From: an uncultured Caulobacter sp.
Lineage (GTDB): Bacteria; Pseudomonadota; Alphaproteobacteria; Caulobacterales; Caulobacteraceae
DNA length: 64,000 nt
Direction: 5' to 3'
NCBI RefSeq assembly: GCF_947036865.1
Contig: NZ_CAMQSF010000008.1
Coordinates: forward strand, 1-64,000
Shown: positions 21,243 through 45,822 of the stretch, in pieces
Layout: the number at the start of each line of letters is the position of its first letter
How positions within the stretch are numbered: position 1 is the stretch's first letter
Notes under the pieces: generated by a model
The model's input: only the letters and a program-made list of their open reading frames with translations
Told to the model about the DNA's origin: nothing
The model's database searches: none
Made by a program: the position numbers and the translations under genes

Positions 21243-22601
21243 TCAGCGCCAGCGGTCGAGGATCTTGCCGAGGCGTCCTCGACCGTAGGCCAGGGCGACG
21301 TAGACGCTCAGCACGCTGCGCGCCCAGGCGCGATAGAGGGCGGGCCGTCGCAGGCGTCGGGCCAGCCAGAACAACCGATGGCTGGTCCGCGCGATGTGGC
21401 GGCGGGCGCTATAGATCAGCTTGCGACGCGGCGGAAGGTCGGTCCGCGGCGCGACTCGCTTGGCGAGAGGCAAGGCCGGCGGCGTAACGGCCAGTCGGTA
21501 GGCCAGGCCCTCGCGGCGCTGGCGGAAGGCCGCCGCCTGGGTTTCGGCCACCGTATCCGCCGTCGCCGGGGTGAGCGCCAGCCGCCCATCGGCCGCGGCC
21601 TCTTCGAACAGCACGTGCAGGGCCGGATCGCGGACGATCGCCACATTGTGCCCGCGCCCATCGGCGCTGTAGGGCTCGATCCAGGCGTCGCCGACCGTCA
21701 GGTCCGCCGTCTCGCCGGCGACGTCGTCGCACCAGTCGCAGGCCGAGTTCTGGAAGAAGCCGGCGCCCCAGTCGCCGTCGTCCATGTCCCACCAGTGCTT
21801 GCGGCGCTGGTCTCCGCCGGGCAGGTCGATCGCGGCGACGTACCAGTTGGCGGGCTGGTCCGGGATCTTGAGCCGGAAGTCGAAGCCTTCCGCGTCCTCC
21901 AGTCGGGCGTCCATCTGCCAGGCGAAGCTCTCGGCCATCCGCGCGCTCTTCATGTGGCCGCAGAACAGCGCGATCGTGTGGGTGATCCGCTCGGCCAGCC
22001 TGGGGTCCTGGGCGCGCAGCAGATGGATGGCCTTGATGAAGCAGGGAACGCCGATCACCGCGTAGCGACCCGGCGCGGCGAGGATGGCGCGCACCACCCC
22101 GGAAAGTTCGACCGGGTAGTAGCGCGACTTGGCGCCGGCGCGCAGCGCGTCGACGTTGCGAGAGACCACGTAGCTGAACAGGCGTTCGCCGGGGTCGGGC
22201 GCGACGTGGGCGACGGCGTCGATGAGGCCGCGTTCCATCAGGGTCGCGGCGGTCCAGGTCGCCAGGCCCCCGGAACTGGCGCGGGCGCGGTAGTCGCCCT
22301 CGGCGACATAGCCGATATAGGTCGCCTCGTGCCGCCCCAGGCGCTCGTCTCGCCCCGTGGCCGCGGGAAACCGCGCGGTCGCGATGGCGTCCTCGTCGGC
22401 GGCGCCGGGCGAGAAAGGACAGGTTCGGGCGAAGGCGAGGCTGGCGACCTCGGCCGCCGGTCCCCGGGGCTTCAACTGGCCGAAGGCGTCGAGCTTCATC
22501 TCCAGCGCTTCGGCGCGAAGGCCCGCGCAGCCGCCGCAGCCGACGCAGAGGCCGGCGCGGACCACCTCGTCCGGCGATAGGGCTTGATGGGGCTGATCCA
22601 T
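21243..22601 (-). CDS. FrhB/FdhB-like iron-sulfur oxidoreductase of the glycan locus
   Basis: A 452-residue protein with the coenzyme F420 hydrogenase/dehydrogenase beta-subunit N and C domains. Cysteines at 19, 22 and 25 (CVGCGGC) plus Cys61 followed by proline form a ferredoxin-like 4Fe-4S site. The C-terminal 80 residues are arginine-rich. In polysaccharide loci such proteins often travel with pyruvyltransferases and do not imply F420 use; their reaction is poorly defined, perhaps a reduction of a sugar or cofactor. It is the last gene of a ten-gene leftward operon, three bases after the pyruvyltransferase. Confidence 0.8.
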   Translation of the reverse strand: MDQPHQALSPDEVVRAGLCVGCGGCAGLRAEALEMKLDAFGQLKPRGPAAEVASLAFARTCPFSPGAADEDAIATARFPAATGRDERLGRHEATYIGYVAEGDYRARASSGGLATWTAATLMERGLIDAVAHVAPDPGERLFSYVVSRNVDALRAGAKSRYYPVELSGVVRAILAAPGRYAVIGVPCFIKAIHLLRAQDPRLAERITHTIALFCGHMKSARMAESFAWQMDARLEDAEGFDFRLKIPDQPANWYVAAIDLPGGDQRRKHWWDMDDGDWGAGFFQNSACDWCDDVAGETADLTVGDAWIEPYSADGRGHNVAIVRDPALHVLFEEAAADGRLALTPATADTVAETQAAAFRQRREGLAYRLAVTPPALPLAKRVAPRTDLPPRRKLIYSARRHIARTSHRLFWLARRLRRPALYRAWARSVLSVYVALAYGRGRLGKILDRWR

Positions 22602-22604
22602 GGG

Positions 22605-23663
22605 CTAGGCGAGCGCCGTGTCGAGAAAGGCGTCCGAACGCGCCCTCAACGCCGCGATCCGCGCCTCGACGATCGGTTCCGGCGGCGTGGTCATCAGATG
22701 ATCGATCCGGTCGGGGGAGGCGTCGTCGCCGATGAGCCGATCCTCGGCCCCGAGACTGGTCAGCAGGTCCCCGATCTTGTCGGCGCGATAGGGCGTGCCG
22801 ACGCAGACGAACGGCTTGCGTTCGGCCAAGGCGAAGACGCAGCCGTGGAAGAAGTTCGTCACGATCCCCGAGGCGCTGGCCATCGCCTCGGCGAACGCCT
22901 CCGGGCCCGCGTCCAGCGTCTGGGCGTCGGCCCAGGCGTTGCGGTAGCCGAAGCTCAACAGCCGGCGACCGCGTCGCCCCGCCCAAGCGCTAAGCGCGCG
23001 CTGGAGCCAGGCGGGAAAGCCATGACCGTAGACGATCACCTCGCCCGATGACGCCGACGCGGCGCGCGGCGGGGCGAATTGCAGACAGGGGTCCAGCACG
23101 CGCGGCGCCTCGAGGCCCAAAGCGCCGCGAGCCAGTCGTCGGGCGTTCTCGTCGCGAACGGAGATATGGGCGAAACCGCGCAGCAAACTGGCGAGGCCGT
23201 CGTCCAGCCCCGCGTCGCCGTGATTGCCGACGCTGGCGGCGTAGGCCGCGATCCGGTCGGCGTTCAGCCCCTGGCCGAAGAACACCGGCTCGCCGCCGTA
23301 CCACGGATGGCGCAGGTTCCAGACCTCGTCGCTGCCGACCACGACGATATCCTGGCGATCCATGCGCGCGGGCGCCTTGAGGTCGAACGGCTTCGACATC
23401 GGTAGGCGCCCGAAGGCGTCGAAGAAGGCCCGTGTCTTGTCGGCATAGGCGCGCCGATCCTCGGCCGGGGTCGGGGCGGGAAGGTGGGGCGACAGCGCGC
23501 AACGCCACTCCGCGCGATCCACGCGCGGCGAGCGATGATCCAGCAGCTGGGCGTCGTGGCCACGCGCCCTCAGGCCCTCGACCAGGCGTCGGGCCTGCCA
23601 GTACGAACCATAGTTGATGCAGCGATGGAAGGTCAGGACGCCGACGCGCTTGGGGCGGGTCAT
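22605..23663 (-). CDS. Polysaccharide pyruvyltransferase family protein
   Basis: A 352-residue member of the polysaccharide pyruvyltransferase (CsaB/GumL/ExoV) family, which transfers pyruvate from phosphoenolpyruvate to form a ketal on a sugar. Family marks are the N-terminal HRCINYGSYWQARRL, VVGSDEVWN in the middle and NFFHGCVFALAERKPFV near the C-terminus. The start is the ATG giving MTRPKRVG. It is cytoplasmic, with two bases between it and the upstream epimerase gene. It probably adds an acidic pyruvate to the glycan built by this locus. Confidence 0.85.
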   Translation of the reverse strand: MTRPKRVGVLTFHRCINYGSYWQARRLVEGLRARGHDAQLLDHRSPRVDRAEWRCALSPHLPAPTPAEDRRAYADKTRAFFDAFGRLPMSKPFDLKAPARMDRQDIVVVGSDEVWNLRHPWYGGEPVFFGQGLNADRIAAYAASVGNHGDAGLDDGLASLLRGFAHISVRDENARRLARGALGLEAPRVLDPCLQFAPPRAASASSGEVIVYGHGFPAWLQRALSAWAGRRGRRLLSFGYRNAWADAQTLDAGPEAFAEAMASASGIVTNFFHGCVFALAERKPFVCVGTPYRADKIGDLLTSLGAEDRLIGDDASPDRIDHLMTTPPEPIVEARIAALRARSDAFLDTALA

Positions 23664-23665
23664 GC

Positions 23666-24667
23666 CTAGGCCACGAGCTCCGTCTCGTCCTGACGGGGTC
23701 GCGGGCGGTCCTGGGCCTCGAACCAGGCGATGGTGGTCCGCAGGCCATCGCCGAGGCTGGTGGTCGGCCGCCAGCCCAGGATCTCGATCGCGCGAGTGAT
23801 GTCGGGACGGCGGCGTCGCGGGTCGTCGACCGGCAGGCGCTGGTGGACGACCTTCGACGACGAGCCCGTCAGCTCCAGCACGACCTCGACCAGCTGGCGG
23901 ATGGTCAGTTCCTCCGGATTTCCGAGATTGACGGGGCCGCGCGGCGAGACCGGGTGCTCCATCAGACGCATCAGGCCTTCGACGAGGTCGGCGACGAAGC
24001 AGAACGAGCGGGTCTGGGCGCCGTCGCCGAAGACGGTGATGTCCTCTCCGGCGATGGCTTGGCTCACGAGGTTCGAGACCACCCGGCCATCGTGGGCCGA
24101 CAGACGCGGACCGTAGGTGTTGAAGATCCGGGCCACCCGCACCTCGGCGCGGCCCAGGCGCTCGAAGTCGAAGCACAGGGCCTCGGCGGCCCGCTTGCCC
24201 TCGTCGTAGCAGGCGCGAGGGCCAGTGCAGTTGACGTTGCCCCAGTCGCTCTCGACCTGCGGGTGGGCGATCGGATCGCCATAGACCTCGCTGGTCGAGG
24301 CTTGCAGCAGGCGCGCGCCATCGCGTTCGGCCAGCCTCAGCAGGCGGTCGGTTCCCAGGACGCTGGTCAGCAGCGTGTGCTCCGGATCGCGCTGATAGAG
24401 CGGCGGCGAGGCGGCGCAGGCCAGATTGTAGATGCGGTCGAACCGCGTCCGGCTTACGCGCGTCGGCAGCGGTCTGACGATGTCGCCGATGCGGAGTCTG
24501 AACCGCTCGTGCGCCTCCAGCCGGCGCAGGTTGTCGCGCGAGCCGGTCTGCAGGTTGTCGAGGCAGACCACCCGGTGCCCGTCGGCGATCAGCCGTTCGC
24601 AGAGGTGCGAGCCCACGAAGCCGGCGCCGCCGGCGACGAGGATGGAGAGCGACGTCTTCTCAGGCAT
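23666..24667 (-). CDS. NAD-dependent epimerase/dehydratase, UDP-xylose synthase-like
   Basis: A 333-residue extended short-chain dehydrogenase. GGAGFVG (residues 13-19) binds NAD, and STSEVYG with Tyr154 and Lys158 in YDEGK forms the catalytic set. The pattern NLACAASPPLYQRDP and RACYDEGKRAAE is that of UDP-glucuronate decarboxylase and the related dTDP-glucose dehydratases. It probably makes UDP-xylose or a related sugar nucleotide for the locus. Its start overlaps the end of the upstream glycosyltransferase by eight bases. Confidence 0.82.
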   Translation of the reverse strand: MPEKTSLSILVAGGAGFVGSHLCERLIADGHRVVCLDNLQTGSRDNLRRLEAHERFRLRIGDIVRPLPTRVSRTRFDRIYNLACAASPPLYQRDPEHTLLTSVLGTDRLLRLAERDGARLLQASTSEVYGDPIAHPQVESDWGNVNCTGPRACYDEGKRAAEALCFDFERLGRAEVRVARIFNTYGPRLSAHDGRVVSNLVSQAIAGEDITVFGDGAQTRSFCFVADLVEGLMRLMEHPVSPRGPVNLGNPEELTIRQLVEVVLELTGSSSKVVHQRLPVDDPRRRRPDITRAIEILGWRPTTSLGDGLRTTIAWFEAQDRPRPRQDETELVA

Positions 24668-25751
24668 GGGCGACCTCGGCGACAGGGGGCGAAAGCGGGG
24701 CGCGGGCCGCCGCGAGCAACAGGCGCTCCAGTTCGAGCACGCGGTGACGGGCGGTGTGGGCGCCGAGGATCTTCTGGCGTCCGGCTTGACCGATCCGTCG
24801 CGGCAGGTCGACGGGGGCGGCGAGCGCCGCCAGCACGGCGGCGCCGTCGTCGGCCAGGATGATCTCGTGGTCCGGCTCGAACAGCGTCTCGATCCCGTCC
24901 CACCGGTCGGAGATGATCGCCGCCCCGCAGGCCGCCGCCTCGAACAGGCGGACGCTGGGGCTGTAGCCGGCCGCCGACATGTCGGCGCGGGTGACATTCA
25001 GCGTGAAGCGGCTGGCGCCGTAGAAGGCCGGGTGCTCGGCGGGACCGACATGGTCGATCCGTTCGACGTTATCCGGCCAGGCGATGTCGGCGGGATATTG
25101 CGGCCCGGCGACGCAGAACTTCAGGTGCGGCGCCGCGCGGGCCGGTTCCAGCAGCAGGCGCTCCAGGATCGGCTGGCGATCGACGCTGTACGTGCCCAGA
25201 TAGCTGAGGTCCCAGCGCTTGGCCGTCTCGATCGGCCGATAGAGGTCGGCGTCCACCGAGCAATAGAGGGCGCGGGCGGCGGGCGAGCCCAGGTCGCGCT
25301 CGATGCGCCGCAGCGTCGGCCCGCCGGTGAACGACAGATAGAGGTCGTAGCGCGGGATCAGGTCCGCCGACAGATAGTCGAGCGGGCCGGCCTGCAGATT
25401 GGCCAGGGTGACCGGGGTGTCGATATCGTAGAACGCCTTCACGCCCCGCGCGTGGGTCAGCACCCAGTCGCCGATCGCCGCGCCTTCGGGCACGTAGGAA
25501 CCGACGATCACGGCGTCGGCCGCCGCGATCTCCGACCGCCAGGCCTCAAGGCCGGCGAGGTCATCATAGAAGGCCAGCCGGCAGAAGTCGGGTTCGAGGT
25601 CGCGGTGCGCCGCGTACCAGGGAACGTCCCGCTCCAGGAACAGGATGTCGTGACCGCGCTCGGCGAAGGCCTTCAGCAGCGCGCGATAGGTGGTGGCGTG
25701 GCCATTGCCCCAGGACGAGGAGAGGGCGAGGCCGAGGACGACGAGCTTCAC
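24660..25751 (-). CDS. CgeB-like glycosyltransferase (first of three)
   Basis: A 363-residue GT-B protein resembling the CgeB-type glycosyltransferases. The N-terminus LVVLGLALSSSWGNGHATTYRALLKAFAERGH and the C-terminal half with RLFEAAACGAAIISDRWDGIETLF match two neighbours, showing that the three arose by duplication. The start is GTG, overlapping the upstream stop as GTGA and preceded by GGGAG. No signal peptide; it should act at the cytoplasmic face. Donor and acceptor are unknown. Confidence 0.78.
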   Translation of the reverse strand: MKLVVLGLALSSSWGNGHATTYRALLKAFAERGHDILFLERDVPWYAAHRDLEPDFCRLAFYDDLAGLEAWRSEIAAADAVIVGSYVPEGAAIGDWVLTHARGVKAFYDIDTPVTLANLQAGPLDYLSADLIPRYDLYLSFTGGPTLRRIERDLGSPAARALYCSVDADLYRPIETAKRWDLSYLGTYSVDRQPILERLLLEPARAAPHLKFCVAGPQYPADIAWPDNVERIDHVGPAEHPAFYGASRFTLNVTRADMSAAGYSPSVRLFEAAACGAAIISDRWDGIETLFEPDHEIILADDGAAVLAALAAPVDLPRRIGQAGRQKILGAHTARHRVLELERLLLAAARAPLSPPVAEVAHA

Positions 25752-26842
25752 GCCAGGCTCCCTTCGCGCTTCAGATCGACGGCGTGGCGCAGCAGCTGAT
25801 CCACCTCCGCGCCGCGCCGGGCGTAGGTGTGTTCGGCCAGCACCCGCTGGCGGGCGGCCTGGCCGATGGCGCGGGCGCGCTCGGGCGTCAGGGCGCGGAG
25901 ATGCTCGGCCACGTCCTGGCCGTCGCGGGCGACCAGAACCTCCTCGTTGGGCGCGAGGAACAGTTCGAGGCCCTCCCAGGCGTCCGTGATCAGGCAGCCG
26001 GCGGCGCCGGCGGCTTCGAAGACGCGCGTGGCCGGGGAGAAGCCGACCTCGGCCATCGAGTCCCGGGCGACGTTCAGCACCGCCAGGGGCGAGCCGTTGA
26101 ACGCGTTGTGATCGGCGGTGCCGACATGCCCCAGGCGCTCGACATTGTCGGGCATGGGCTTGTCGTCCCAACCCGAGCCGCCCAGCAGGAACCGGCGGTC
26201 GGGGAGGCGGGCGGCGGCGTCGAGGAAGAACCGCTCCACCCGCCGCTCGCGATCCGGCAGGCGGTTGGCCAGGAAGTTCAGATCCCGGGCGAAGCGGGGC
26301 TCGATCGGGACGGGATGATGCGTATGCGGGTCCAGGGCGTTGTAGATCGGCTGGCACGCGCGGGCCCCGAGGCGCTTGTAGGCGTCGATCACCGGCGGCC
26401 CGCCGCCATAGGTCAGCACGAAGTCCAGTCTCTCTAGCGCCTGGCGCAGCGGATGGTCGGGCGCGGGCGTGATCTCGGCCAGGGTGGCCGGCGCGTCGAC
26501 GTCCCAGAACACCTTGACCGCGTGCGGCGCGGCGGCCGCGACCAGGCCGGCGATCAGCCGGTCGTCGAACACGCCGACCCCGCTGGCCTTGACCACGACG
26601 TCGGCGTCGCCGGACTCCTGAATGACCGCGTCGACCGCCGACTCCGTCGCGTCATAGACGACCACGCGGGCCCACGCCGGCGGTTCGATGTCGCGGTGCT
26701 TCTGGCGATCGAAGGCGTCCGGCTCGTAGAAGACGATCTGGTGGCCTCGCCCGGCCAGGTCGCGCAGAAGGCCCCTGTAATAGGTCGCCGCGCCGTTCCA
26801 GTAGGCGGACAAGAGGCTCGATCCGTAGAAGGCGATCTTCAT
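25748..26842 (-). CDS. CgeB-like glycosyltransferase (second of three)
   Basis: A 364-residue GT-B protein with the N-terminus MKIAFYGSSLLSAYWNGAA and the C-terminal block RVFEAAGAAGCLITDAWEGLELF, in parallel with its two neighbours. It lacks a signal peptide. The start overlaps the stop of the upstream gene by four bases (ATGA), and its own stop overlaps the next start (GTGA). Three related transferases in a row suggest that each adds one sugar of a short repeat or oligosaccharide. Confidence 0.78.
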   Translation of the reverse strand: MKIAFYGSSLLSAYWNGAATYYRGLLRDLAGRGHQIVFYEPDAFDRQKHRDIEPPAWARVVVYDATESAVDAVIQESGDADVVVKASGVGVFDDRLIAGLVAAAAPHAVKVFWDVDAPATLAEITPAPDHPLRQALERLDFVLTYGGGPPVIDAYKRLGARACQPIYNALDPHTHHPVPIEPRFARDLNFLANRLPDRERRVERFFLDAAARLPDRRFLLGGSGWDDKPMPDNVERLGHVGTADHNAFNGSPLAVLNVARDSMAEVGFSPATRVFEAAGAAGCLITDAWEGLELFLAPNEEVLVARDGQDVAEHLRALTPERARAIGQAARQRVLAEHTYARRGAEVDQLLRHAVDLKREGSLA

Positions 26843-27951
26843 GCGACGCTCTCCAAGGCGGGGGCCGCGCCGATCCGGCGAAGGATCGCCAGCAGCTCGT
26901 CGACTCTGTGGGCGCAGGTGTGGCGGGCGCGGATGGTCTCCAGCCCGTGCTGGGCGAGGCTTTGGCGAAGTTCCGGATCGGCCGCGACGGCGCGCAGGTG
27001 CGTCGTCATCGCCGCGCGATCCTCGCCGATCAGATAGTCGGTTCCCGGCCGGAACAGGCCCTCCACGTCGCGCCACGGCGCGCTGACCAGGGGGATGCCG
27101 CAGGCCAGGGCCTCGAAGACGCGAATGGTCGGGATGCCGGGCAAGGCCTCGACATAGAACCGTCGCGGCACGTGGGCCGTGGCCAGGCGCCGGGCGAACG
27201 CGCGCGGAACCGCGGCGTTGGCCAGCCAGCCGCGATAGGTCGCGCCATACCGGGCCAGCAGCGCCTTGGCCGCTTCCGGATAGCGGACGCCGTGAATGTC
27301 CAGCGACAGCCCCGCGTCTCGGGCGGGCGCCAGCAGATAGGCCTCGATCTCGGCCGTCCGCTCGCCATCGCCCCAGTTGCCGATCCAGACCAGGCCTTGC
27401 CGCTCGCCCTCATGAGCCGGGGGCTGGAACACCGTGACGTCGGCGGCCTCGTGCCAGACGAACACCCGATCGCCCCAGCCCCAGCGGCGGTAGACCGCCG
27501 CGAGCGTCTCGCCGAAGGCCAGCACGCCGTCATAGCCGTCGAGATCGAAGGCGCGGATGGCGTCCGGATCGCTGACGGCGCGGTGGTGGGTGTCGTGGAA
27601 CAGCAGGGTGAACCGCCCGCCGGCCTTTCGCTTGGCGCCCAAGGCCGCGACCAGCGCGGGGTCGCTCCATTCGTGGACGATCACCAGATCGGCGTCGGCG
27701 GCTTGGTCCACGGCCTCGCCGAGCCGGCCGTAGGCGCGCCAGTCGAGGTCGGGATAGGTCTCGCGAAAGGGCGTCAGGCCCCGCTCGCCGTGGTCGGCGA
27801 GCAGGCTGGCCAGGCTCCAGGCGCCGTCGGGCTCCAAGGCGGTGACCACATGGCCGCGGCGGCCGAGGTCGCGCAGCACGCCGCGCAGGAAATGCGCGTT
27901 GCCGTGGTTCCAGCACGAGCTCAGCGAATGGGTGAAATAGACGATCCTCAC
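26839..27951 (-). CDS. CgeB-like glycosyltransferase (third of three)
   Basis: A 370-residue GT-B protein beginning MRIVYFTHSLSSCWNHGNAHF from a GTG start that overlaps the upstream stop (GTGA). The donor-binding half contains YVEALPGIPTIRVFEALACG and PLVSAPWRDVEGLF, as in the two following genes. It is predicted cytoplasmic or membrane-associated. It belongs to the same translationally coupled operon; specificity cannot be inferred. Confidence 0.78.
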   Translation of the reverse strand: MRIVYFTHSLSSCWNHGNAHFLRGVLRDLGRRGHVVTALEPDGAWSLASLLADHGERGLTPFRETYPDLDWRAYGRLGEAVDQAADADLVIVHEWSDPALVAALGAKRKAGGRFTLLFHDTHHRAVSDPDAIRAFDLDGYDGVLAFGETLAAVYRRWGWGDRVFVWHEAADVTVFQPPAHEGERQGLVWIGNWGDGERTAEIEAYLLAPARDAGLSLDIHGVRYPEAAKALLARYGATYRGWLANAAVPRAFARRLATAHVPRRFYVEALPGIPTIRVFEALACGIPLVSAPWRDVEGLFRPGTDYLIGEDRAAMTTHLRAVAADPELRQSLAQHGLETIRARHTCAHRVDELLAILRRIGAAPALESVA

Positions 27952-29078
27952 GCGGCGACCTCCCGGCGAACGGACGGCCCCAGGCCTGGCGCGAGGCGGG
28001 CATAGATGTCGAGGACGCCGGCGGTCATGGCCTCGACCCCGTAGCGCGCCGCTTGCGCCCGGGCCGCCAGGCCCAGCGCCTCGCGACGATGATCATCGTC
28101 GCAGAGGGCCTGGATCGCGCTGGCGAAGGCCGCGTCGTCACGCCCCGGCGCGAACAGGGCCGCGCCGTTCCACAATTCCCGAAAGGTCGGAATGTCGCTC
28201 AGCACCAGGGCGCAGCCCGCCTGCGCGGCCTCCAGCACGCCAAGGCCGAACGGCTCGTAGAGGGAAGCCGAGGCGAAGATCGCGGCGGCGCTCAGCTCGA
28301 CGCGCACCGCCTCGGCGGAGAGGCGGCCGACCGCGATGGCGTCATCGACGCGTCGCCGCTCGCCGTGCGGACCCGTCAGCGGGCCGATCGCCTTGAGCGG
28401 AAAGGGCAGGCGCGCGGCCGCGCGATCCAGAGTCGCGATGTTCTTGCCGTCGTCCCACAGGCGCCCGGTGGTCACGACTCCGGACCGCGACGCCCGCGCC
28501 GGCGCGGTGTCCGGCCGGCGGCCGTTCGGAACGACGAAGGGCCTGACCGTGTCGTAGGCCCGCATGGTGTCGTCGGCGAAGGCGCCGCTGGGCGCGATCA
28601 CCGCGTCCGAGGCGAGCAGGCCGCGCCGATGGGCCTCGATCCGCCAGCGGAAATCCTCGGGCGGCGGCCCGCCGCGCACCGCGCGCCACCAGGTCGCCAG
28701 GCACGAGTGCGCGACGCTGACGACCGGCTGCCGGAACCGCGCCGCGCCGGCGAGGGCCGGGGCGTTCAGGTGAACCAGATCCACGCCAAGCTCGGCGGCC
28801 AAGTCGCTGACGCCCCGCCCGGCCTGATCCAAAGCCCGCGCGTCCTCGGCCGTCCAATCGAGCGGCAGCCCCGTGTCGATCAAGTCAAGGCCCGGGGTGG
28901 CGGCGGCCTCGGCGATCTGGTCGGCGGTCGGGGGCGGGCCCAGGACCGCGAGGCTGACGCGGACGCCCGCCTCGGCCAGACCGGCCGCGAGATCCAGGGC
29001 ATAGGTCCAGACCCCGCCGACGGCGTCGGTCGTCATCAGCACATGCCGTCCCTCGTCAGGCGTCGCCGGGGCCTTCAA
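27948..29078 (-). CDS. Family 4-type glycosyltransferase
   Basis: A 376-residue GT-B transferase of the GT4 type. The N-terminal HVLMTTDAVGGVWTYALDLA and the donor motif SLYEPFGLGVLEAAQAG with E-x7-E spacing are typical. The start appears to be TTG overlapping the upstream stop (TTGA) with GGGGGCGG nearby; an internal ATG at residue 15, directly before TTDAVGG, is an alternative that would fit the usual family length. It belongs to the ten-gene glycan operon. Confidence 0.85.
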   Translation of the reverse strand: MKAPATPDEGRHVLMTTDAVGGVWTYALDLAAGLAEAGVRVSLAVLGPPPTADQIAEAAATPGLDLIDTGLPLDWTAEDARALDQAGRGVSDLAAELGVDLVHLNAPALAGAARFRQPVVSVAHSCLATWWRAVRGGPPPEDFRWRIEAHRRGLLASDAVIAPSGAFADDTMRAYDTVRPFVVPNGRRPDTAPARASRSGVVTTGRLWDDGKNIATLDRAAARLPFPLKAIGPLTGPHGERRRVDDAIAVGRLSAEAVRVELSAAAIFASASLYEPFGLGVLEAAQAGCALVLSDIPTFRELWNGAALFAPGRDDAAFASAIQALCDDDHRREALGLAARAQAARYGVEAMTAGVLDIYARLAPGLGPSVRREVAA

Positions 29079-31243: not shown

Positions 31244-31513
31244 TCAGCGCTGCACGAACTTGGAGAAGCGGCTGAGCTGGCCGTCCTTGGTTTCGTCCTG
31301 CTCCAGCAGGGCGAGCTTGTTGTCGTCGAAGATGCGGAAGAAGGTCTCCCAGTCGATCTCCTCCAGCGCGTCGTCCTTGTCGCCGAAGTCGAAGCGCAGG
31401 ACGCCGCCGCCGTCCTTGTCGGCGGTCGCCTTGACGCGCGCCGGCCGCCCGCCGCGCTCTTCCGCCCACCGACGAATGGCGTCGTGGTCCGTGATCGACT
31501 TGGCTTGGCTCAT
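31244..31513 (-). CDS. Small conserved acidic protein, first gene of glycan operon
   Basis: An 89-residue soluble acidic protein with ITDHDAIRRWAEERGGRPARVK at the N-terminus and LRFDFGDKDDALEEIDWETFFRIFDDNKLALL after it. Proteins of this pattern are common in alphaproteobacteria and are sometimes mislabelled glucan branching enzyme; I know no established function. It is the promoter-proximal gene of the leftward operon and may have a stress-type promoter of its own. Confidence 0.75.
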   Translation of the reverse strand: MSQAKSITDHDAIRRWAEERGGRPARVKATADKDGGGVLRFDFGDKDDALEEIDWETFFRIFDDNKLALLEQDETKDGQLSRFSKFVQR

Positions 31514-31542
31514 GGCGCGTCCCTTGCTGAACTTGGCAAGGC

Positions 31543-31568
31543 AACACGATCTTCTTGTTGTAAGTTCC
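31543..31568 (-). promoter_or_regulatory. Possible EcfG-type promoter, leftward
   Basis: On the minus strand GGAAC and TGTT are 17 bases apart, one mismatch from the alphaproteobacterial EcfG/SigT consensus GGAAC-N16/17-CGTT. The -10 ends 30 bases before the 89-residue gene. Confidence 0.35.
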
Positions 31569-31705
31569 TCAGCTAAGTTGCTGTGCTCAAGTTATCAAAC
31601 AATATGATTCAAGCAATTACCGTTCCCGTTGATCAAATGTTATTATCATTTGTTGTTCTGTTTCGGGTTTGAGATCCATCATTTGATGTAAACGCGGCCG
31701 TCTCA

Positions 31706-31731: not shown

Positions 31732-31781
31732 CTGCAGCTACAAAGCTGCCGCACGGGGCGGGGCTCCTCCGAACAGGGATC

Positions 31782-35210: not shown

Positions 35211-35213
35211 GCC

Positions 35214-38403: not shown

Positions 38404-39422
38404 CCGACACGATGATCGCTTCTCGAAGCCAAGCGAACCTCCGCTCGCCGCGCGTGGGCTTTCTGGGCGTCGGCTGGATTGGTCGACACCGTCTCCAGGC
38501 GCTGATCGAGGCCGGCGTGGTCGAGGCCGTCGGCGTGGCCGACCCTTCTCCGGAGATGCTGGACGCGGCGCTGGAACTCGCGCCTGGGGCCTCGGCGGTC
38601 GATGGCTTGCACGGGCTGCTGGACCTTGATCTGGACGGGCTGGTCATCGCCACGCCCAGCGCGCTGCACGCCCGGCAGTCCATCGCGGCGCTCGAGCGCG
38701 GCGTTGCGGTGTTCTGCCAGAAGCCGCTGGGCCGCGACCGCGCCGAGGTCGCCGCCGTGGTCGAGACCGCCCGCCGGGCCGATCGCCTGCTGGCGGTGGA
38801 CCTGTCGTATCGCCACGTCGAGGCCATGCGCCGCGTACGGGACATCGTCGCCGCCGGCGAGATCGGCCGCGTCTTTCACGTCGACCTGACCTTCCATAAC
38901 GCCTACGGACCGGACAAGGCGTGGTTCTACGACCCGGCCCTGGCCGGCGGCGGCTGCGTCATGGATCTGGGCACGCACCTGGTCGATCTGGCGCTATGGA
39001 CCTTGGACGGCCCCGAGATCGCCAGCGTGTCCAGCGCGCTGCTCTCCGGCGGGCGCCCGCTTGGCGCCGACATGGTCGAGGACTTCGGGGTGGCGACCCT
39101 GACCCTGTCCAGCGGCGCGGTCGTGCGCCTGGCCTGCTCATGGCGCCTGCCGGCGGGCCAGGACGCCGTGATCTCGGCGGCCTTCTACGGGACCGAGGGC
39201 GGGGTGGCGTTCAGCAATGTCGGCGGCTCGTTCTACGACTTCGCGGCCGAAAGGCTGCGCGGCCAAACCCGGGAAAGGCTGGTCTCGCCGCCGGACGCCT
39301 GGGGCGGACGCGCCGCCGTGGCCTGGGCGCGCGGTCTGGCGGGCGGCGGACGGTTCGATCCCGAAGCGGACAAGCTGGTTCGCCTGGCGGAGACCTTGGA
39401 CCGGATCTACGCGGGCCGATAG
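38400..39422 (+). CDS. Gfo/Idh/MocA oxidoreductase
   Basis: A 340-residue Gfo/Idh/MocA-family NAD(P)-dependent oxidoreductase, the family of inositol 2-dehydrogenase. GFLGVGWIGRHRL binds the nucleotide, and FHNAYGPDKAWFYDPALAGGGCVMDLGTHLVDLALW contains the GG-x5-DxxxH catalytic segment. The usual EKP motif reads CQKPLG, with Gln in place of Glu and the catalytic lysine kept. It ends the rightward operon and overlaps the previous gene by four bases. Likely substrate: an inositol, inosose or nucleotide sugar. Confidence 0.87.
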   Translation: MTDTMIASRSQANLRSPRVGFLGVGWIGRHRLQALIEAGVVEAVGVADPSPEMLDAALELAPGASAVDGLHGLLDLDLDGLVIATPSALHARQSIAALERGVAVFCQKPLGRDRAEVAAVVETARRADRLLAVDLSYRHVEAMRRVRDIVAAGEIGRVFHVDLTFHNAYGPDKAWFYDPALAGGGCVMDLGTHLVDLALWTLDGPEIASVSSALLSGGRPLGADMVEDFGVATLTLSSGAVVRLACSWRLPAGQDAVISAAFYGTEGGVAFSNVGGSFYDFAAERLRGQTRERLVSPPDAWGGRAAVAWARGLAGGGRFDPEADKLVRLAETLDRIYAGR

Positions 39423-39804: not shown

Positions 39805-42174
39805 TCAGGCGTCCCCCACCGCCGAGCCGATCTCCGCGCCCTTGAGGACCCGGCCTTCGCGCTCGGCCAGTCGGCGGAAGGTGGCCAGAGCCTGCCCCAC
39901 CACCTGGTCCATGTTGTAGTAGCGATAGCTCGCCAACCGGCCGACGAAGGTCACGCCGCGCTCGGCCAGGGCCAGCGCTTCGTAGCGCTTGTAGAGCGCC
40001 TGGTTTTCGGGTCGCGGGATCGGATAGTAGGGATCGCCCGTGGCCGACGGATGCTCGTAGGTGATCGTCGTCTTGCGGTGGCTCTGGCCGGTGATGTGCT
40101 TGTACTCGCTGACCCGCGTATAGGGCACGTCCTCGGCGGGATAGTTGACGGTCCCCACCGGCTGGAACCATTCCTGGTCGTGGGTCTCGTGGCGGAACCT
40201 CAGGCTGCGATAAGGCAGGGCCCCGAAGCGCTGATCGAAATAGTCGTCGATCGGACCCGTATAGACCACGTGGTCGAACACGGTCTCGCCCCGCACGTCC
40301 TCCCAATCGACGCCGGTCTCGACGGTGATGTTGGGATGATCGACCATGGCCTCGAACATCCGCGTGTAGCCGGCGGCGGGCATGGCCTGGAAGCTGTCGG
40401 TGAAATAGCGGTCGTCGGTGTTGACCCGGGTCGGGACGCGAGCCGTGACCGACTTGTCCAGCTCCGAGGGGTCAAGGCCCCACTGCTTGCGCGTATAGCC
40501 CCGGAAGAAGCGCTCGTAGAGATCGCGGCCGATCGCCGAGATCACGACATCCTCGGAGGTCCGGACGCTGGCCACCGGCTCGGCGCGGCTGGCCAGGAAG
40601 GCGGCCGCCTCGTCGTCGGAGGTCAGGTTCAGGCCATAGAGCCCGTTCAGGGTGGTGCGGTTGATCGGCATCGGCAGCAGGCCGGCGCTGGTCCGCGCCA
40701 GGACGCGGTGCTCGTAAGGCCGCCAGCGCGTGAAGCGCGACAGATAGGCCGCCACGTCCTCGCTGTTGGTGTGGAAGATGTGCGGCCCGTAGCGGTGCAT
40801 CAGCACACCGTCGGCGTTGTACTCGTCATAGGCGTTGCCGCCGATGTGCGGGCGGCGATCGACCAGCAGGACCCGCTTGCCCAGGCCCGCCGCCAGGCGT
40901 TCGGCCAGGACGCTGCCCGCGAAGCCGGCGCCGACCACGACATAGTCGAACGGCCTCTGGCGCGAGGCGGGCCTGATGGCCGGCGCATAGGGCAGGGCGA
41001 CCTTGATGTCGGCGCTGGCCTGGCGGGCGCGCCGGGCGATGGCGGTCTCCATTCGGCCGTTCATGGCGCGGAAGGTCTCGTCCCAGGACAGATCGGCGAG
41101 GGCCGCGTCCACGCGGGGCAGCCAGGTCTCGGGCCTCCTGGCGTCCTCCAGCGCCTCGGCGCAGGCGGCCACGAAGCCCTCGGCGTCGGCGGCGATCCGC
41201 ACGCCCGGCAAGGCGCCGTAGTGCCGGACGACGTCGGTGATCGGCGTCGAGACCACCGGACGGCCGCCGGCGAGATATTCCGGCGTCTTGGTCGGGCTGA
41301 TGAACCGCGTGGACTCGTTGATCGCGAACGGCATCAGGGCCACGTCCCAGCCCGCCAGATAGTCTGGGAGCGCGGCGTAGGACTTGCCGCCCAGATAGGC
41401 GATGTTGGCGCGTCGGGGCAGAGCCTCGGGGTCGATCTTGACCACCGGGCCGACCAGCACGAGCGTCCAATCCGGGCGCGCGTCGGCGACGGCGGCGATC
41501 AGATCAAGATCCATGCGCTCGTCGATCACGCCATAGAAGCCCAGGCGCGGGGTTCCAAGGCCCGCCTGGTCCGCCGGCGTGTCCCGCGACGCGCGGGCCT
41601 TGGCGAAGTGGTCGCGATCCACGCTGGACGGGAAGGGGTGGATGTCGCCGTGGGCCGAACGCTTGGCCTCGTACAGGCTGTAGCCGCCAGTGAAGACCAC
41701 GTCGGCGGCCGCCAGCAGTTCCCGCTCCAGCGCGACCAGGGCCGGCGGGGCGAACTTGAAGTTCGCCAGCTCGTCCATGCAGTCATAGACCACGCAGGCG
41801 CCCGACACGGACCGCGAGAACGGCAGCATCATCGGCGTGTAGTACCAGCGCGCCCGCACCGGTCGGCCGGCGATGAGCTCGGTCAAGAGACGCCCCAAGG
41901 TGGCGTCGCGGGCCTCGTCGTCGAGGTTCGGGTCGAGCATCGGCGTGGCGACCACGACGCCGGTTTCCAGGCAGACCCGCGTCTCGACGCGCGGATCCCC
42001 TTCGCCGGGGCGAGGCTCCTCCCAGAAGATCACCGGCCGCTGCTGGGCGAACCGGCTCATCAGATGCTGTGGGCGCTGGAAGACGAAGTCCCAGCGGAGG
42101 TGAGAAAAGCAAACGATAAGAGCGTCATCGGCCGCGCGGCCAGTCCGATTAGCGTTCAGTGAAGACGGCGGCAC
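39805..42174 (-). CDS. Glycosyltransferase fused to UDP-galactopyranose mutase
   Basis: A 789-residue two-domain protein. Residues about 15-390 form a GT-B glycosyltransferase (CFSHLRWDFVFQRPQHLMSRF at the N-terminus, SPTKTPEYLAGGRPVVSTP at the donor site). Residues about 409-785 are a complete UDP-galactopyranose mutase (Glf) with FAD motif GAGFAGSVLAERLA and the RYGPHIFHTN, WGLDP and RVPTRVNTDDRYF blocks. Glf alone is usually about 370-390 residues, so this is a true fusion and not a read-through. The start is GTG behind GGGAG. It should make UDP-galactofuranose and may pass it directly to a galactofuranosyl or other transfer step. Confidence 0.9.
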   Translation of the reverse strand: MPPSSLNANRTGRAADDALIVCFSHLRWDFVFQRPQHLMSRFAQQRPVIFWEEPRPGEGDPRVETRVCLETGVVVATPMLDPNLDDEARDATLGRLLTELIAGRPVRARWYYTPMMLPFSRSVSGACVVYDCMDELANFKFAPPALVALERELLAAADVVFTGGYSLYEAKRSAHGDIHPFPSSVDRDHFAKARASRDTPADQAGLGTPRLGFYGVIDERMDLDLIAAVADARPDWTLVLVGPVVKIDPEALPRRANIAYLGGKSYAALPDYLAGWDVALMPFAINESTRFISPTKTPEYLAGGRPVVSTPITDVVRHYGALPGVRIAADAEGFVAACAEALEDARRPETWLPRVDAALADLSWDETFRAMNGRMETAIARRARQASADIKVALPYAPAIRPASRQRPFDYVVVGAGFAGSVLAERLAAGLGKRVLLVDRRPHIGGNAYDEYNADGVLMHRYGPHIFHTNSEDVAAYLSRFTRWRPYEHRVLARTSAGLLPMPINRTTLNGLYGLNLTSDDEAAAFLASRAEPVASVRTSEDVVISAIGRDLYERFFRGYTRKQWGLDPSELDKSVTARVPTRVNTDDRYFTDSFQAMPAAGYTRMFEAMVDHPNITVETGVDWEDVRGETVFDHVVYTGPIDDYFDQRFGALPYRSLRFRHETHDQEWFQPVGTVNYPAEDVPYTRVSEYKHITGQSHRKTTITYEHPSATGDPYYPIPRPENQALYKRYEALALAERGVTFVGRLASYRYYNMDQVVGQALATFRRLAEREGRVLKGAEIGSAVGDA

Positions 42175-42338: not shown

Positions 42339-44096
42339 ATGCTCGAGCTCTGGGGCGGTCACGAATGCACGGTGAACCGCGTCCGCGACGATTATCGCGA
42401 TCAGTCGGTCATCAGCGGCCATGACACGCGGGTCGCCGACCTCGACCTGTTCGCGGCGGCCGGGTGCCGAGCGCTTCGCTATCCGGTGCTGTGGGAGCGG
42501 GTCTCGCCCCGCCGGGACGATCCGCCCGACTGGACCTGGAGCGACGAGCGCCTGAAGCGCCTGCGCGCCCTTTCCATCAGACCCATCGTCGGGCTCTGTC
42601 ACCACGGATCGGGGCCGCGCCACACCGACCTCCTGGATCCGGAGTTCGCGCCGGGGCTGGCGGCGCATGCCCAGGCGGTCGCGGAGCGCTATGACTGGAT
42701 CGAGGACTGGACGCCGGTCAACGAGCCGCTGACCACCGCGCGCTTCAGCGCCCTCTACGGCCACTGGCATCCGCACGCCGCGGACGAGGGCGCGTTCTGG
42801 ACCGCGCTCTTGAACCAGATCGACGCGGTGCGGCTGTCGATGCGCGCCATTCGCCGCGCGCGGCCGGACGCGCGCCTGATCCAGACGGAGGACCTGGGGC
42901 GCACCTACGCGACGCCGCCGCTGCGCGAGCAGGCCGATTTTGAGAACCTGCGGCGTTGGATGACCTGGGATCTCTTGACCGGGCGGGTTGACCGCGAACA
43001 CGGTCTTTTCGAGCGGCTGGACCTTTATGGTCTGGGTGACCGGCTGCGGGCCATCGCCGACGCGCCCTGTCCGCCCGACGTCCTGGGCGTCAACCATTAC
43101 CTGACCAGCGAGCGCTTTCTCGATCACCGGCTTGAGCGCTACCCGCCCGAGCGCCACGGCGGCAACGCGACGGTGCGCTATGCCGATGTCGAGGCGGTTC
43201 GGGTGCTGCTGCCCGGACCCGACGGGCTGGAAGGCGTCCTGCGCGAGACCCACGCGCGCTACGGCCTTCCGATGGCGGTGACCGAGGTTCACAACGGCTG
43301 CACGCGCGAGGAGCAGATGCGCTGGCTTCTGGAGGCCTGGCGGGCGGCGGAGCGCCTGCGGGCGGACGATATCCCGGTGATCGGGGTCACGGCTTGGTCG
43401 TTGCTGGGGGCGTTCGACTGGGACAGCCTGCTGACGCGCGCGACAGGCTCGTACGAGCCGGGCGTCTTCGATCTTCGCGATGGGGCGCCTCGCCCGACCG
43501 GCCTGGCGACCCTGATGAAGGCCCTTGCCGAACGGGCCGATCCGCCGCCGGCGGCGCTGGGCGCGGGCTGGTGGCGGCGCGACATCCGACTGGAATACGC
43601 GCCGGTCCGTCGCCCTCTGGACGACCCGCCGCCGACCTGGCTCAGGACTCCCGAGGCCGGACCGCCTCTGGTGATCCTGGGGGACGGAACGCTCGGGCAA
43701 GCGGTGGCGCAAGCCTGCCTCTGGCGCGGGCTCGACTATCGGATCGTCGGCGACCGCGCGAAGGCCGGGGCGCTGATCGATGGCGAGCGCCCGTGGGCGA
43801 TCATCGCCGCCCTCGACGCGGCCGAGGCGCGAGATGACCTGGTCGTTCGCTGGGCGGCGGCCAGCGCGATCCGTGGCCTGGCCTTCTTGGCGCTGGTCGG
43901 CGGCGACAGCGTGTCCGAACCCCTGGTCGCCGAACTGCTGGCCATGGACGCGCGGATCCTCATCGCCGAGTTCGGCGCCGACGTCGCCGTGGCGGAGCCC
44001 GAGGGGCGGGCGCGCCTGGATCAGGCGCTGGACTTGCTGATCGATGGCGAACGCGGTCGCCGCTTGCTCACGCGGCCCTGGGTGACAGCGGAATGA
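42339..44096 (+). CDS. GH1-like domain fused to RmlD-like Rossmann domain
   Basis: A 585-residue protein. Residues about 1-430 are a family 1 glycosidase-like barrel with acid/base TPVNEP (Glu129) and nucleophile TEVHNG (Glu316, where family 1 usually has TENG). Residues about 450-585 start with PPLVILGDGTLGQAVAQACLWRGLDYRIVG, the NAD-binding beginning of dTDP-4-dehydrorhamnose reductase, but the domain is much shorter than RmlD and lacks its YxxxK. No signal peptide. The start has GGAGG five bases away. A cytosolic glycosidase joined to a nucleotide-sugar-like domain suggests synthesis or editing of a glycan rather than digestion. Confidence 0.82.
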   Translation: MLELWGGHECTVNRVRDDYRDQSVISGHDTRVADLDLFAAAGCRALRYPVLWERVSPRRDDPPDWTWSDERLKRLRALSIRPIVGLCHHGSGPRHTDLLDPEFAPGLAAHAQAVAERYDWIEDWTPVNEPLTTARFSALYGHWHPHAADEGAFWTALLNQIDAVRLSMRAIRRARPDARLIQTEDLGRTYATPPLREQADFENLRRWMTWDLLTGRVDREHGLFERLDLYGLGDRLRAIADAPCPPDVLGVNHYLTSERFLDHRLERYPPERHGGNATVRYADVEAVRVLLPGPDGLEGVLRETHARYGLPMAVTEVHNGCTREEQMRWLLEAWRAAERLRADDIPVIGVTAWSLLGAFDWDSLLTRATGSYEPGVFDLRDGAPRPTGLATLMKALAERADPPPAALGAGWWRRDIRLEYAPVRRPLDDPPPTWLRTPEAGPPLVILGDGTLGQAVAQACLWRGLDYRIVGDRAKAGALIDGERPWAIIAALDAAEARDDLVVRWAAASAIRGLAFLALVGGDSVSEPLVAELLAMDARILIAEFGADVAVAEPEGRARLDQALDLLIDGERGRRLLTRPWVTAE

Positions 44097-45822
44097 CCTC
44101 GGCGGGCGCCAGGCCCGCCTCGCGGGCCAGATGGGCGAAGCGCCCGTTCTGGTCCACCAGGTCCGCGAACGTCCCGCGCTCGACGATCCGGCCCTTGTCG
44201 AGCACCAGGATCAGATCGGCGTCGACGATGGTCGAGAGGCGATGGGCGATCACGAAGGTGGTGCGCCCGCGCGCGGCGTTGTCCAGCGCGGCCTTGACCT
44301 TGGCCTCGGTGACGGTGTCGAGCGCGCTGGTCGCTTCATCCAGGATCAGGATCGGCGCGTTCTTGAGAATGGCGCGCGCGATCGCCAGGCGCTGCCGTTC
44401 GCCGCCCGAGAGGAGCTGGCCGCGTTCGCCGATCACGAAATCCAGGCCACCCTCCTTGTCCTGAACGAACTCCCAGGCCTCGGCGGCGACCAGCGCCGCC
44501 TGAAGCTCGGCGTCCGTGGCTTCGGGCCGCGCCATCCGCAGGTTTTCGCCGATCGACCGATTGAAGAGGCCGGCCTCTTGGAACACCACCGCGATCGAGG
44601 CGCGCAGCGAGGCCAGCGTGGTCTCGCGCAGATCGCGGCCGTCGATGGTGATGCGGCCAAGATCGGGTTCGCGGATGCGCTGCAACAGCGACATCATCGT
44701 CGTCTTGCCCGCGCCGGAGGACCCCACCAGCGCGACCGTCGCGCCGGCCGGCACGCTCACGTTCAGATCGAAGACGCCCAGGTCGTTGCGATCGCAGATC
44801 CAATGGGTGACGCCCTCGAAAGCCACCTCGCCGCGAGCGTTCTCCAGCGGCCGCGCGTCGGGCGCGTCGCTGAAGCCCTGGCGCTCGTCGATCAGGGCGA
44901 AGAAGGCCTTCAGCGTCGGCAGGCCCACGAACAGGCGCGACAACGAGCTGGACAGCAGGTCCAGACGTCCGATCAGCAGGGTCGCGAAGCCGCCGAAGGC
45001 GACGATCTCGCCCAGGCTCGATTGGCCATGCGCCGCCATGGCGCCGCCCACGGCATAGATGGAGACCAGCGCGATCGTCGAGGCGCTGCGCGTGAGGACG
45101 ATCAGCAGGGCCCACCAGTTGAGCACGGGAAACTGGGCTTTCAGCAACTGCTGGGAAAGCTGCCGCAGCTTGGCGGTCTCGCTGTACAGATTGGCGTAGG
45201 CCTGGACGACCGAGACGTTGGCGACGACGTCGCCGATGCGGCTGGACACCGCCTGCGCCTGATCGTCGACGCTGCGCTGGCCGCTCTCCGTGCGCCGGAT
45301 GACGTAGAGATTGGCGGCCACGTAGATCCCCGCCAGCGCGACGAGCACGCCGGCCAGGCCGGGATTCATCCAGAACGCCACGGGGATCATCAGCGCCAGG
45401 GCGAAGAGCGCCGGCATCTGCTCCCGTAGAAAGCCCAGCAGCACCCAGAAGAGGCTGTCGCCGCCGGCGGTCATGATCCGGACCAGCCGGCTCGTGCCGC
45501 GCTCGGAGATGAGGGCGCTGGGCAGGGTCACGGCGTTGTCGAACGCCTCGGTCATGGCCTGCAGCCGTCGGCGGTGGGACAGCCGGTCGGCGACGATCGA
45601 CGCCGTCACCCCGGCGCCGACGCCCAGGGCGCTGACGGCGGCCCAGGCGGCGATGTAGGGCCAGGCGGCGGCGCCGCGGCCGACCGCGCCCACCACCTTG
45701 CCGAACACGATCGGGTCGAGCAGGGCCACGGCGCCCAAGACGAGATTGGCGCCGACGATGATGGCGGCGCGGCGACGTTCCTGGATCAGGGAGGCGATCG
45801 CGCGACGATAGATCGAGAACAT
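44068..45822 (-). CDS. NdvA-like ABC exporter (TM-NBD half transporter)
   Basis: A 584-residue ABC exporter subunit. Six transmembrane segments lie in residues 1-310; the nucleotide domain has Walker A GSSGAGKTT (about 367-375), signature LLSGGERQRLAIARAI, Walker B ILILDEATSALD and the H-loop IAHRLST. The pattern is closest to NdvA/ChvA cyclic beta-1,2-glucan exporters. No cyclic glucan synthase (NdvB, nearly 3000 residues) is in the window. It lies tail to tail with the GH1-RmlD gene, overlapping by 29 bases. It is the best candidate for moving the product of this locus across the inner membrane. Confidence 0.85.
   Translation of the reverse strand: MFSIYRRAIASLIQERRRAAIIVGANLVLGAVALLDPIVFGKVVGAVGRGAAAWPYIAAWAAVSALGVGAGVTASIVADRLSHRRRLQAMTEAFDNAVTLPSALISERGTSRLVRIMTAGGDSLFWVLLGFLREQMPALFALALMIPVAFWMNPGLAGVLVALAGIYVAANLYVIRRTESGQRSVDDQAQAVSSRIGDVVANVSVVQAYANLYSETAKLRQLSQQLLKAQFPVLNWWALLIVLTRSASTIALVSIYAVGGAMAAHGQSSLGEIVAFGGFATLLIGRLDLLSSSLSRLFVGLPTLKAFFALIDERQGFSDAPDARPLENARGEVAFEGVTHWICDRNDLGVFDLNVSVPAGATVALVGSSGAGKTTMMSLLQRIREPDLGRITIDGRDLRETTLASLRASIAVVFQEAGLFNRSIGENLRMARPEATDAELQAALVAAEAWEFVQDKEGGLDFVIGERGQLLSGGERQRLAIARAILKNAPILILDEATSALDTVTEAKVKAALDNAARGRTTFVIAHRLSTIVDADLILVLDKGRIVERGTFADLVDQNGRFAHLAREAGLAPAEVIPLSPRAA

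Follow-up and report, generated by a model that had tools for sequence, protein, structure and literature searches.

What does a member of the Caulobacteraceae make with a long, divergently transcribed gene cluster that opens with an inositol-phosphate synthase and continues with glycosyltransferases and nucleotide-sugar enzymes? The question is raised by a stretch of 64,000 nucleotides from an uncultured Caulobacter sp. (contig NZ_CAMQSF010000008.1, positions 1–64,000 of the forward strand; hereafter, the window), which belongs to a genome of 4.25 Mb in 95 contigs. Codon-usage gene calls, together with the list of open reading frames, place ten genes in a leftward run (31513 to 21243) and eight in a rightward run (31782 to 39422). 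In both runs most neighboring genes overlap by 1–31 bases or sit a few bases apart, the widest gap being 32 bases, which bears out the two divergent operons described in an earlier reading of the letters alone (hereafter, the original prediction).

The answer favored here, tentatively, is a conserved cytoplasmic pathway that would yield a soluble, inositol-headed, O-methylated hetero-oligosaccharide serving as a general-stress protectant. None of the 18 operon proteins contains a 19-residue segment with a mean hydropathy of at least 1.8 (a threshold test only), in agreement with the earlier statement that no Wzx/Wzy-like protein is present, and no glycan exporter, polymerase or lipid transferase was recognized among those families recurring around the locus that were scanned and named. 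The simplest product to fit these results would be a soluble cytoplasmic oligosaccharide, and stress protection would be the simplest role because a promoter motif of the EcfG type precedes ino1 in many copies of the locus (see section Promoter Motif and Possible Stress Control). An inositol- and nucleotide-sugar-dependent glycan locus without an assigned product had been proposed, and none was found in the literature searched, which left subscription journals largely outside. Three features look new: a circularly permuted glycosidase, a sister cluster that lacks Ino1, and the EcfG motif before ino1 in Microvirga and Bradyrhizobium.

Conservation of the Gene Set

Genomes were scanned with a nine-row alignment of the glycosidase encoded in the rightward operon (E 1e-3), and at least 537 of 592 pattern matches were confirmed as relatives, some of which may be unpermuted forms or lie in other settings. 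The counts of core loci given below refer to the best 80 of these at least 537 relatives, in stretches of at most 21 kb in which genes near the edge are undercounted. All 80 are from Alphaproteobacteria by title and are 72–86% identical. Ino1 lies near the glycosidase in 73 of them; of the seven exceptions, five belong to Methylobacterium and the other two are short contigs (4.6 and 11.4 kb). The neighborhood search proposed with the original prediction thus recovers the same gene set across many genera in rearranged orders, which makes the locus more than a product of chance, and the variation of gene order between genera argues for functional coupling. The shared set comprises about a dozen genes, and its carriers include many bacteria from soil, associates of plants and nitrogen fixers. 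The set is also found on Sinorhizobium meliloti pSymB (245375–248743; L112), where the copy at 245 kb presumably carries the gene numbers SMb2023x–2025x, on Azospirillum lipoferum AZO_p5 (L113), and on a plasmid of Paracoccus yeei (L114).

Within lineages the occurrence is patchy, which fits horizontal transfer of the locus. Among 75 species in the genus of the window, the window's own is the only one with the glycosidase. Across the family, it is encoded at full length by 12 of 149 genomes, and one more holds a broken remnant; the cluster was present in all nine family neighborhoods examined, the window included. In a sample of the class, 12 of 289 genomes match the glycosidase, six of them in permuted form (in one more genome of the class, G424, a second match, L125, is weak), and in a sample of the phylum the ten genomes of 299 that exceed the TIGR04290 cut-off all belong to the window's own class. 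In the topology of a tree of the 75 loci that hold all three of its proteins at 85% coverage, the window groups with a Caulobacteraceae metagenome-assembled genome and Phenylobacterium, and bacterial orders are mixed elsewhere.

The recurrent extra families that could be named are a nucleotidyltransferase, a B12 radical SAM protein, phosphopentomutase, SpoVR, DUF444, PrkA, a PIG-L deacetylase (11 of 80 loci) and an additional glycosyltransferase (eight loci). The nucleotidyltransferase gene occurs in 38 loci and in 32 of these adjoins an extra CgeB-like paralogue. The radical SAM family is present in 31 of the 80 loci, and its one scanned member passes TIGR04295 (B12_rSAM_oligo), a model without a match in the window genome. 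TIGR04290, which the window's methyltransferase passes, and TIGR04295 are both NCBIfam hypothetical equivalogs without an assigned function; as the two mark the cassette, part of it has already been seen by curators, although neither name occurs in the literature searched. As separate observations, 15 loci have a phosphopentomutase (DeoB) family gene inside the cluster or close to it (L066, L079, L081, L082, L085–L088, L092, L095, L096, L100, L101, L103, L105), a potassium-channel-like family, named by eye and from the L113 annotation, is found in eight Azospirillum loci, and a decayed remnant (L031, 10691–11808, genome G011) holds fragments of ino1, the glycosidase gene and the 577-residue protein gene side by side.

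Enzymes Encoded by the Two Operons

The rightward operon opens, as originally described, with ino1 (31782..32909, plus strand), which encodes an inositol-3-phosphate synthase of the actinobacterial type; from the sequence and the list of open reading frames, the start was placed at the ATG at 31782 in preference to 31806. The protein clears the PF01658 cut-off (122 versus 27 bits) and is similar over its full length to the solved INO1 of Mycobacterium tuberculosis (1gr0; 477 bits over 349 residues), and it falls below the cut-off of TIGR03450, the mycothiol-type INO1 equivalog (527 versus 638 bits). It is the sole PF01658 match in the window genome; the PF07994 profile gave no match there, a blind spot of that profile. 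The enzyme had been called uncommon in proteobacteria: uncommon it is, but not rare, since 29 of the 289 genomes of the class sample encode it.

The next three genes belong to the conserved set. A histidine-phosphatase-family protein (32906..33508, plus strand; PF00300, 169 bits; 72 of 80 core loci) has an inositol phosphate, or a glycosyl-inositol phosphate, as its presumed substrate. The two genes that follow had been overlooked in the earlier gene reading: an S-adenosylmethionine-dependent methyltransferase of TIGR04290 (33496..34287, plus strand; 383.7 bits versus a cut-off of 300), found in 77 core loci, and the PslG-like (GH39-type) glycosidase (34284..35210, plus strand).

The remaining rightward genes are accessory or variably kept. 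A dual-specificity-type phosphatase (35214..35717, plus strand; PF00782, 46 bits) occurs in five core loci, and the His_Phos_1 and DSPc matches confirm the two phosphatases first proposed. The 577-residue protein (35717..37450, plus strand) has no family match and relatives in 23 of 80 core loci, every one below 50% identity. It carries an invariant DEGPGLSG (DEGPGLSGSSF) and a C-terminal KxDxxDH motif that look phosphoribosyltransferase- or kinase-like by eye only; neither assignment was retained, and the earlier label 'kinase-like' found no support, as Pfam, NCBIfam and the PDB gave no usable relative (54 PDB matches at E of at least 0.058, nearly all to Bcl-xL, were treated as noise). A zinc-dependent medium-chain dehydrogenase/reductase (MDR; 37420..38403, plus strand; PF00107, PF08240) and a Gfo/Idh oxidoreductase (38400..39422, plus strand), both identified earlier and confirmed here, each accompany 22 of the 80 core loci. 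The MDR protein appears inosose-dehydrogenase-like (NF041097, scyllo-inosose 3-dehydrogenase, 89.7 bits, under the cut-off of 450) and the Gfo/Idh protein inositol-dehydrogenase-like (best NCBIfam model TIGR04380, 87 bits, under the cut-off of 355); with the inositol-related models so far under cut-off, we can only infer inositol as their substrate.

The leftward operon, all on the minus strand, begins beside the divergent promoter with an 89-residue conserved protein (31244..31513; no family match; 16 of 80 core loci). It is followed by two short-chain dehydrogenases/reductases (SDRs): a nucleoside diphosphate (NDP)-sugar 4-epimerase type (30124..31236; PF01370; 6wjb, 149 bits; 68 core loci) and a CDP-tyvelose 2-epimerase-like protein (29075..30127; 9rl0, 283 bits; 1orr, 257 bits; 62 core loci). 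Four glycosyltransferases come next. The GT4 enzyme (27948..29042; PF13439, PF13692) is present in 69 core loci, and the other three match PF13524, whose members we take to be CgeB-like: transferase 3 (26839..27951; 117 bits) in 72 core loci, 65 of them at 50% identity or more, transferase 2 (25748..26842; 139 bits) in 71, and transferase 1 (24660..25751; 132 bits) in 53 at 50% identity or more, with 18 further loci that hold only a less similar extra paralogue (71 of 80 if counted together). UDP-glucuronate decarboxylase (UDP-xylose synthase; 23666..24667; 4gll/2b69, 333 bits) was counted in 30 core loci, a number that is low partly because the stretches often end at this gene or short of it. 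The operon ends with two accessory genes, for a polysaccharide pyruvyltransferase (22605..23663; PF04230, 87 bits) and its FrhB/FdhB-like partner (21243..22601; PF04432, PF04422); the former had been recognized earlier, and both occur in only two of the 80 core loci (L050, L056). In P. yeei and S. meliloti (L114, L112), the pyruvyltransferase, FrhB-like, MDR and Gfo/Idh genes travel together with the core.

Two known systems share parts of this set. As in the TIGR04290/TIGR04295 cassette, the methyltransferase passes TIGR04290 and the TIGR04295 family stands in 31 of the 80 relatives, whereas the window genome itself has no TIGR04295 match. As in the mycothiol pathway (Ino1–MshA), an actinobacterial-type Ino1 is combined with a GT4 enzyme, which is weakly similar to MshA (34 bits); however, the two proteins stay under the TIGR03450 and TIGR03449 cut-offs, and in a search confined to the 18 operon proteins no match to MshB, MshC or MshD and no aminotransferase was found.

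The Permuted Glycosidase and Its Sister Cluster

The window glycosidase resembles PslG, an endoglycosidase of the Pseudomonas Psl locus that we take to belong to GH39, with a similar barrel by sequence and two candidate catalytic glutamates kept. The match is a distant one (5bx9; E 7.7e-7, 32 bits), the window enzyme has no hydrophobic N-terminal segment, and the order of its parts differs: residues 200–293 of the profile correspond to PslG 25–128 (6 bits alone, weak), and residues 3–186 to PslG 132–321. Glu10, in an NEP motif, and Glu112 are invariant in all nine aligned rows and are, from their positions, the candidate catalytic residues.

Six alphaproteobacterial genomes encode relatives of the glycosidase in the usual, unpermuted order. 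Against each of them, the native window protein gives two crossed alignments (97–114 and 45–55 bits), whereas a rotated copy gives a single one (138–149 bits, query residues 3–286). By these crossed alignments the canonical strand order of PslG-like glycosidases is not kept, and the window enzyme is, as far as its alignments tell, circularly permuted, which looks new. The cut directly precedes the NEP motif, and the start MIEA is common to all nine rows and matches the annotated starts in L112, L113 and L114.

In the six genomes (L119–L124), the unpermuted PslG-like domain and a CDP-tyvelose 2-epimerase-like SDR occupy one open frame, and the SDR part is 57–62% identical to the 2-epimerase of the window. 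Five stretches of 20 kb around such fusions also hold UDP-glucuronate decarboxylase, three CgeB-like transferases, a GT4 enzyme, a B12 radical SAM gene, a 4-epimerase and a methyltransferase; neither Ino1 nor the histidine phosphatase was found in them. By PF01658, Ino1 is absent from all six genomes with the unpermuted fusion and present in five of six sampled genomes with the permuted form (Fisher p 0.015, kinship ignored), the negative one (G294) being a draft of 270 contigs. A sister cluster, with an unpermuted glycosidase–2-epimerase fusion and without Ino1, is thus part of the family and looks new. The originally proposed inositol-centered glycan would suit the loci related to the window, 73 of 80 of which have Ino1, but not the sister cluster, which shares the transferases and epimerases; inositol therefore belongs to one branch of a larger family.

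Promoter Motif and Possible Stress Control

The pattern GGAAC-N16/17-[CG]GTT, corresponding to the EcfG motif, was searched upstream of ino1 in 76 loci (73 of the best 80 and L112–L114), excluding loci without a usable ino1 start or with too little upstream sequence. It was found in 37 of the 76, versus 0, 0, 4, 1, 2 and 2 of 76 for six altered control patterns. The strict form ending in CGTT is present in 32 of 72 ino1 upstream regions, compared with 18 of 654 regions of other genes. The signal is concentrated in genera (from titles) that we assign to the order Hyphomicrobiales, in which 36 of 42 loci carry the motif. In Microvirga and Bradyrhizobium it precedes ino1 in 30 of 31 loci; for other genes the count is 8 of 209, for genes inside the cluster 1 of 253, and the divergent side (4-epimerase or 89-residue protein) carries it in 12 of 43. 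The two genera differ in its spacer and in its distance, but loci inside one genus are not independent. Two of five sister clusters have GGAAC-N16-GGTT 100–110 bases before their first gene, against a background of 0.02 per 500 bases.

SpoVR, DUF444 and PrkA have a stress role, and one set of 13 Microvirga loci (L052, L055, L057–L059, L061–L064, L067, L068, L074, L080) has all three families close to the cluster. The ino1 motif agrees with the EcfG motifs given in reports on Rhizobium etli (GGAAC-N16-CGTT; PMC3892343) and Sphingomonas melonis (GGAAC-N17-20-GTT; PMC6599016). The latter also lists EcfG-dependent glycosyltransferase and glycosidase genes, which may or may not be relatives of those in the locus. 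In some groups, namely the Hyphomicrobiales copies, the locus is thus probably wired to the general stress response, as judged from the motif.

In the window, the divergent intergenic region (31514..31781, no strand assigned) contains GGAAC-N17-CGTC at 31706, one mismatch away from the EcfG motif. For the window itself, EcfG control is no more than a candidate: over the whole window GGAAC-N15-18-CGTT is no more frequent than in shuffles (two occurrences, shuffle mean 1.37). An alpha/beta hydrolase gene at 46016 has an exact EcfG-like motif 51 bases upstream (45965–45989); with two of them in the window, such motifs do not exceed chance.

Proposed Pathway

In the favored pathway to a soluble inositol-headed oligosaccharide, Ino1 would convert glucose-6-phosphate to inositol-3-phosphate, from which the histidine phosphatase would take off the phosphate, either ahead of the first sugar transfer or following it. 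About four sugars, from UDP-xylose and epimerized NDP-hexoses, would be attached by the GT4 enzyme and the three CgeB-like transferases, and the methyltransferase would cap one hydroxyl. Trimming or transglycosylation of the chain, also cytoplasmic, may fall to the permuted glycosidase. In the window, the MDR and Gfo/Idh proteins would change the inositol isomer or oxidize a sugar, and the pyruvyltransferase with its FrhB partner would add a pyruvate ketal.

Several observations weigh against this pathway or against its link to stress. The pyruvyltransferase, judged by characterized members of its family, argues for a surface glycan; the NdvA-like exporter gene lies about 5 kb from the operon, and another exporter could move the finished oligosaccharide. 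In five Methylobacterium loci the glycosidase stands apart from most of the cluster, and in the family a GH1-like gene (E < 1e-100) accompanies the glycosidase in 8 of 12 genomes, versus 9 of 137 others (Fisher p 2e-6, kinship ignored). The window motif at 31706 is equaled in 5 of 100 shuffles, so it is weak alone, and the exact EcfG motif is absent from 31514–31781. Outside Hyphomicrobiales, the motif precedes ino1 in only 1 of 34 loci; it is absent from four further ino1 upstream regions of other genomes and from the region before the first gene in three of five sister clusters. With this distribution and the mismatched window motif, stress control of the window locus is putative at most. 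For S. meliloti, the numbers SMb2023x–2025x, presumably those of the pSymB copy, are not listed among RpoE2 targets in the main text of a paper on the sigma factors of this species (PMC6180224), and no regulon list naming genes of the locus was found in the literature searched. Product, acceptor and sugars are likewise predictions from the genes.

Neighboring Genes and Alternative Products

A first alternative, built on the original prediction, is a pyruvylated, inositol-linked glycolipid or periplasmic oligosaccharide that contains galactofuranose and leaves the cell interior through the NdvA-like transporter; we regard it as rather unlikely. In its favor, three further genes, for a Glf fusion, a GH1-like protein and an exporter, follow the rightward operon, the exporter and the Glf fusion within 7 kb, and the pyruvyltransferase is encoded inside the leftward operon. 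The first gene (39805..42060, minus strand) encodes a glycosyltransferase (PF13692, 38.8 bits) fused to UDP-galactopyranose mutase (TIGR00031, 372.6 bits, above the cut-off of 303.75), as described earlier. The second (42339..44096, plus strand) had been read as a GH1–RmlD fusion; the GH1-like half is supported (PF00232, 28.9 bits), whereas the RmlD half, Rossmann-like here, has no Pfam match at E 0.001. This protein has 585 residues. Of its 18 strong relatives in the family, 14 are found within longer open frames, of at least 719 residues, and align only to about residue 420–510, so the C-terminal sugar-nucleotide half of the window protein looks shortened. The third (44068..45822, minus strand) encodes an ABC exporter that is NdvA/ChvA-like, as proposed (TIGR01192, 581.6 bits, just under the ChvA cut-off of 585.4). 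In this it resembles cyclic glucan export, but no cyclic glucan synthase gene was noticed in the locus, and conservation of the core does not extend to the exporter.

Relatives of the Glf, GH1-like and ABC proteins stand within 10 kb of the core in 0, 0 and 3 of the 80 loci (the last weak, at 24–33% identity), and the same genes occur without the core elsewhere. In Sphingobium yanoikuyae (L116), divergent Glf and GH1-like genes and a lone NuoD gene are found with the core absent from the stretch. In Azospirillum brasilense p4, Glf, beta-glucosidase and ABC genes lie in a row, again with the core absent from the stretch, and identity to the window proteins is only 28% for the beta-glucosidase and 36% for the ABC protein; in a Deinococcus stretch, the GH1-like relative stands alone. 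The three genes are therefore a separable module, a neighbor rather than a step of the pathway, and the galactofuranose and export part of the original prediction is weakly supported at best. The co-occurrence of the GH1-like gene with the core glycosidase in the family, which speaks for the glycolipid or periplasmic product, suggests that both may serve the same lifestyle. As for a glycolipid, no lipid transferase was recognized, and nothing recognized in the conserved core points to a lipid acceptor; we infer that a soluble oligosaccharide is to be preferred.

Beyond the module, a stand-alone NuoD-like gene (window 46935–48155; 610 bits) was observed, and no further gene for complex I was noticed next to it; the S. 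yanoikuyae NuoD next to the Glf/GH1-like pair is 64% identical. Terminal-oxidase-like genes follow near the locus (window 48888–52838), and in A. lipoferum AZO_p5 (L113) cyoABCD genes, 39–55% identical, adjoin the locus copy.

Decoration of a surface polysaccharide or lipopolysaccharide (LPS), in which the oligosaccharide would be assembled in the cytoplasm and enzymes from other loci would join it to a known surface polymer, is in our judgment unlikely. The four transferases, three NDP-sugar enzymes and pyruvyltransferase are the usual kit of surface-glycan genes, and one copy of the locus is on pSymB, a replicon rich in surface glycan loci. However, none of the named recurrent families was recognized as a flippase, polymerase, ligase, chain-length or glycan export family, and the 18 operon proteins are without membrane segments by hydropathy; unlike Wzx/Wzy- or ABC-dependent polysaccharide loci, the conserved core thus shows no integral membrane flippase, polymerase or exporter. 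Bradyrhizose, an inositol-fused sugar of Bradyrhizobium LPS, was considered as an explanation for Ino1 and set aside since the locus also occurs in Caulobacteraceae, Azospirillum and Microvirga.

A small molecule derived from inositol and acting as a signal, a cofactor or an antibiotic-like compound (mycothiol-like or cyclitol-glycoside-like) is quite improbable: Ino1, the MshA-like GT4 enzyme, the methyltransferase, the dehydrogenases resembling inositol and inosose dehydrogenases, and the PIG-L deacetylase and extra glycosyltransferase of some loci would suit it, but four transferases are many for a small molecule, the sister loci are without Ino1, and no MshC-like cysteine ligase or aminotransferase is among the 18 operon proteins, to which the search was confined, so that a mycothiol-like cofactor is a weak rival only.

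Significance

Galactinol and the raffinose-family oligosaccharides of plants are inositol-based and linked to stress, and they offer an analogy to the soluble oligosaccharide favored here, with no homology claimed. A bolder extension, which we hold to be doubtful, is that the locus represents a widespread and as yet undescribed bacterial class of stress-induced inositol oligosaccharides, in function like these plant sugars, in which the permuted cytoplasmic GH39-like enzyme would act as a transglycosylase on an inositol acceptor. If it were true, the permutation, the split from the 2-epimerase and the recruitment of Ino1 would mark a switch from a sugar-headed product, made by the sister cluster, to an inositol-headed one.

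Symbionts that fix nitrogen (S. meliloti pSymB, Bradyrhizobium, Mesorhizobium) share the pathway with Azospirillum and further Alphaproteobacteria. The permuted glycosidase and its unpermuted, epimerase-fused relatives let the order of evolutionary steps be traced, and the locus provides a concrete source of inositol in bacteria that are seldom considered inositol makers, with a testable tie to the general stress response.

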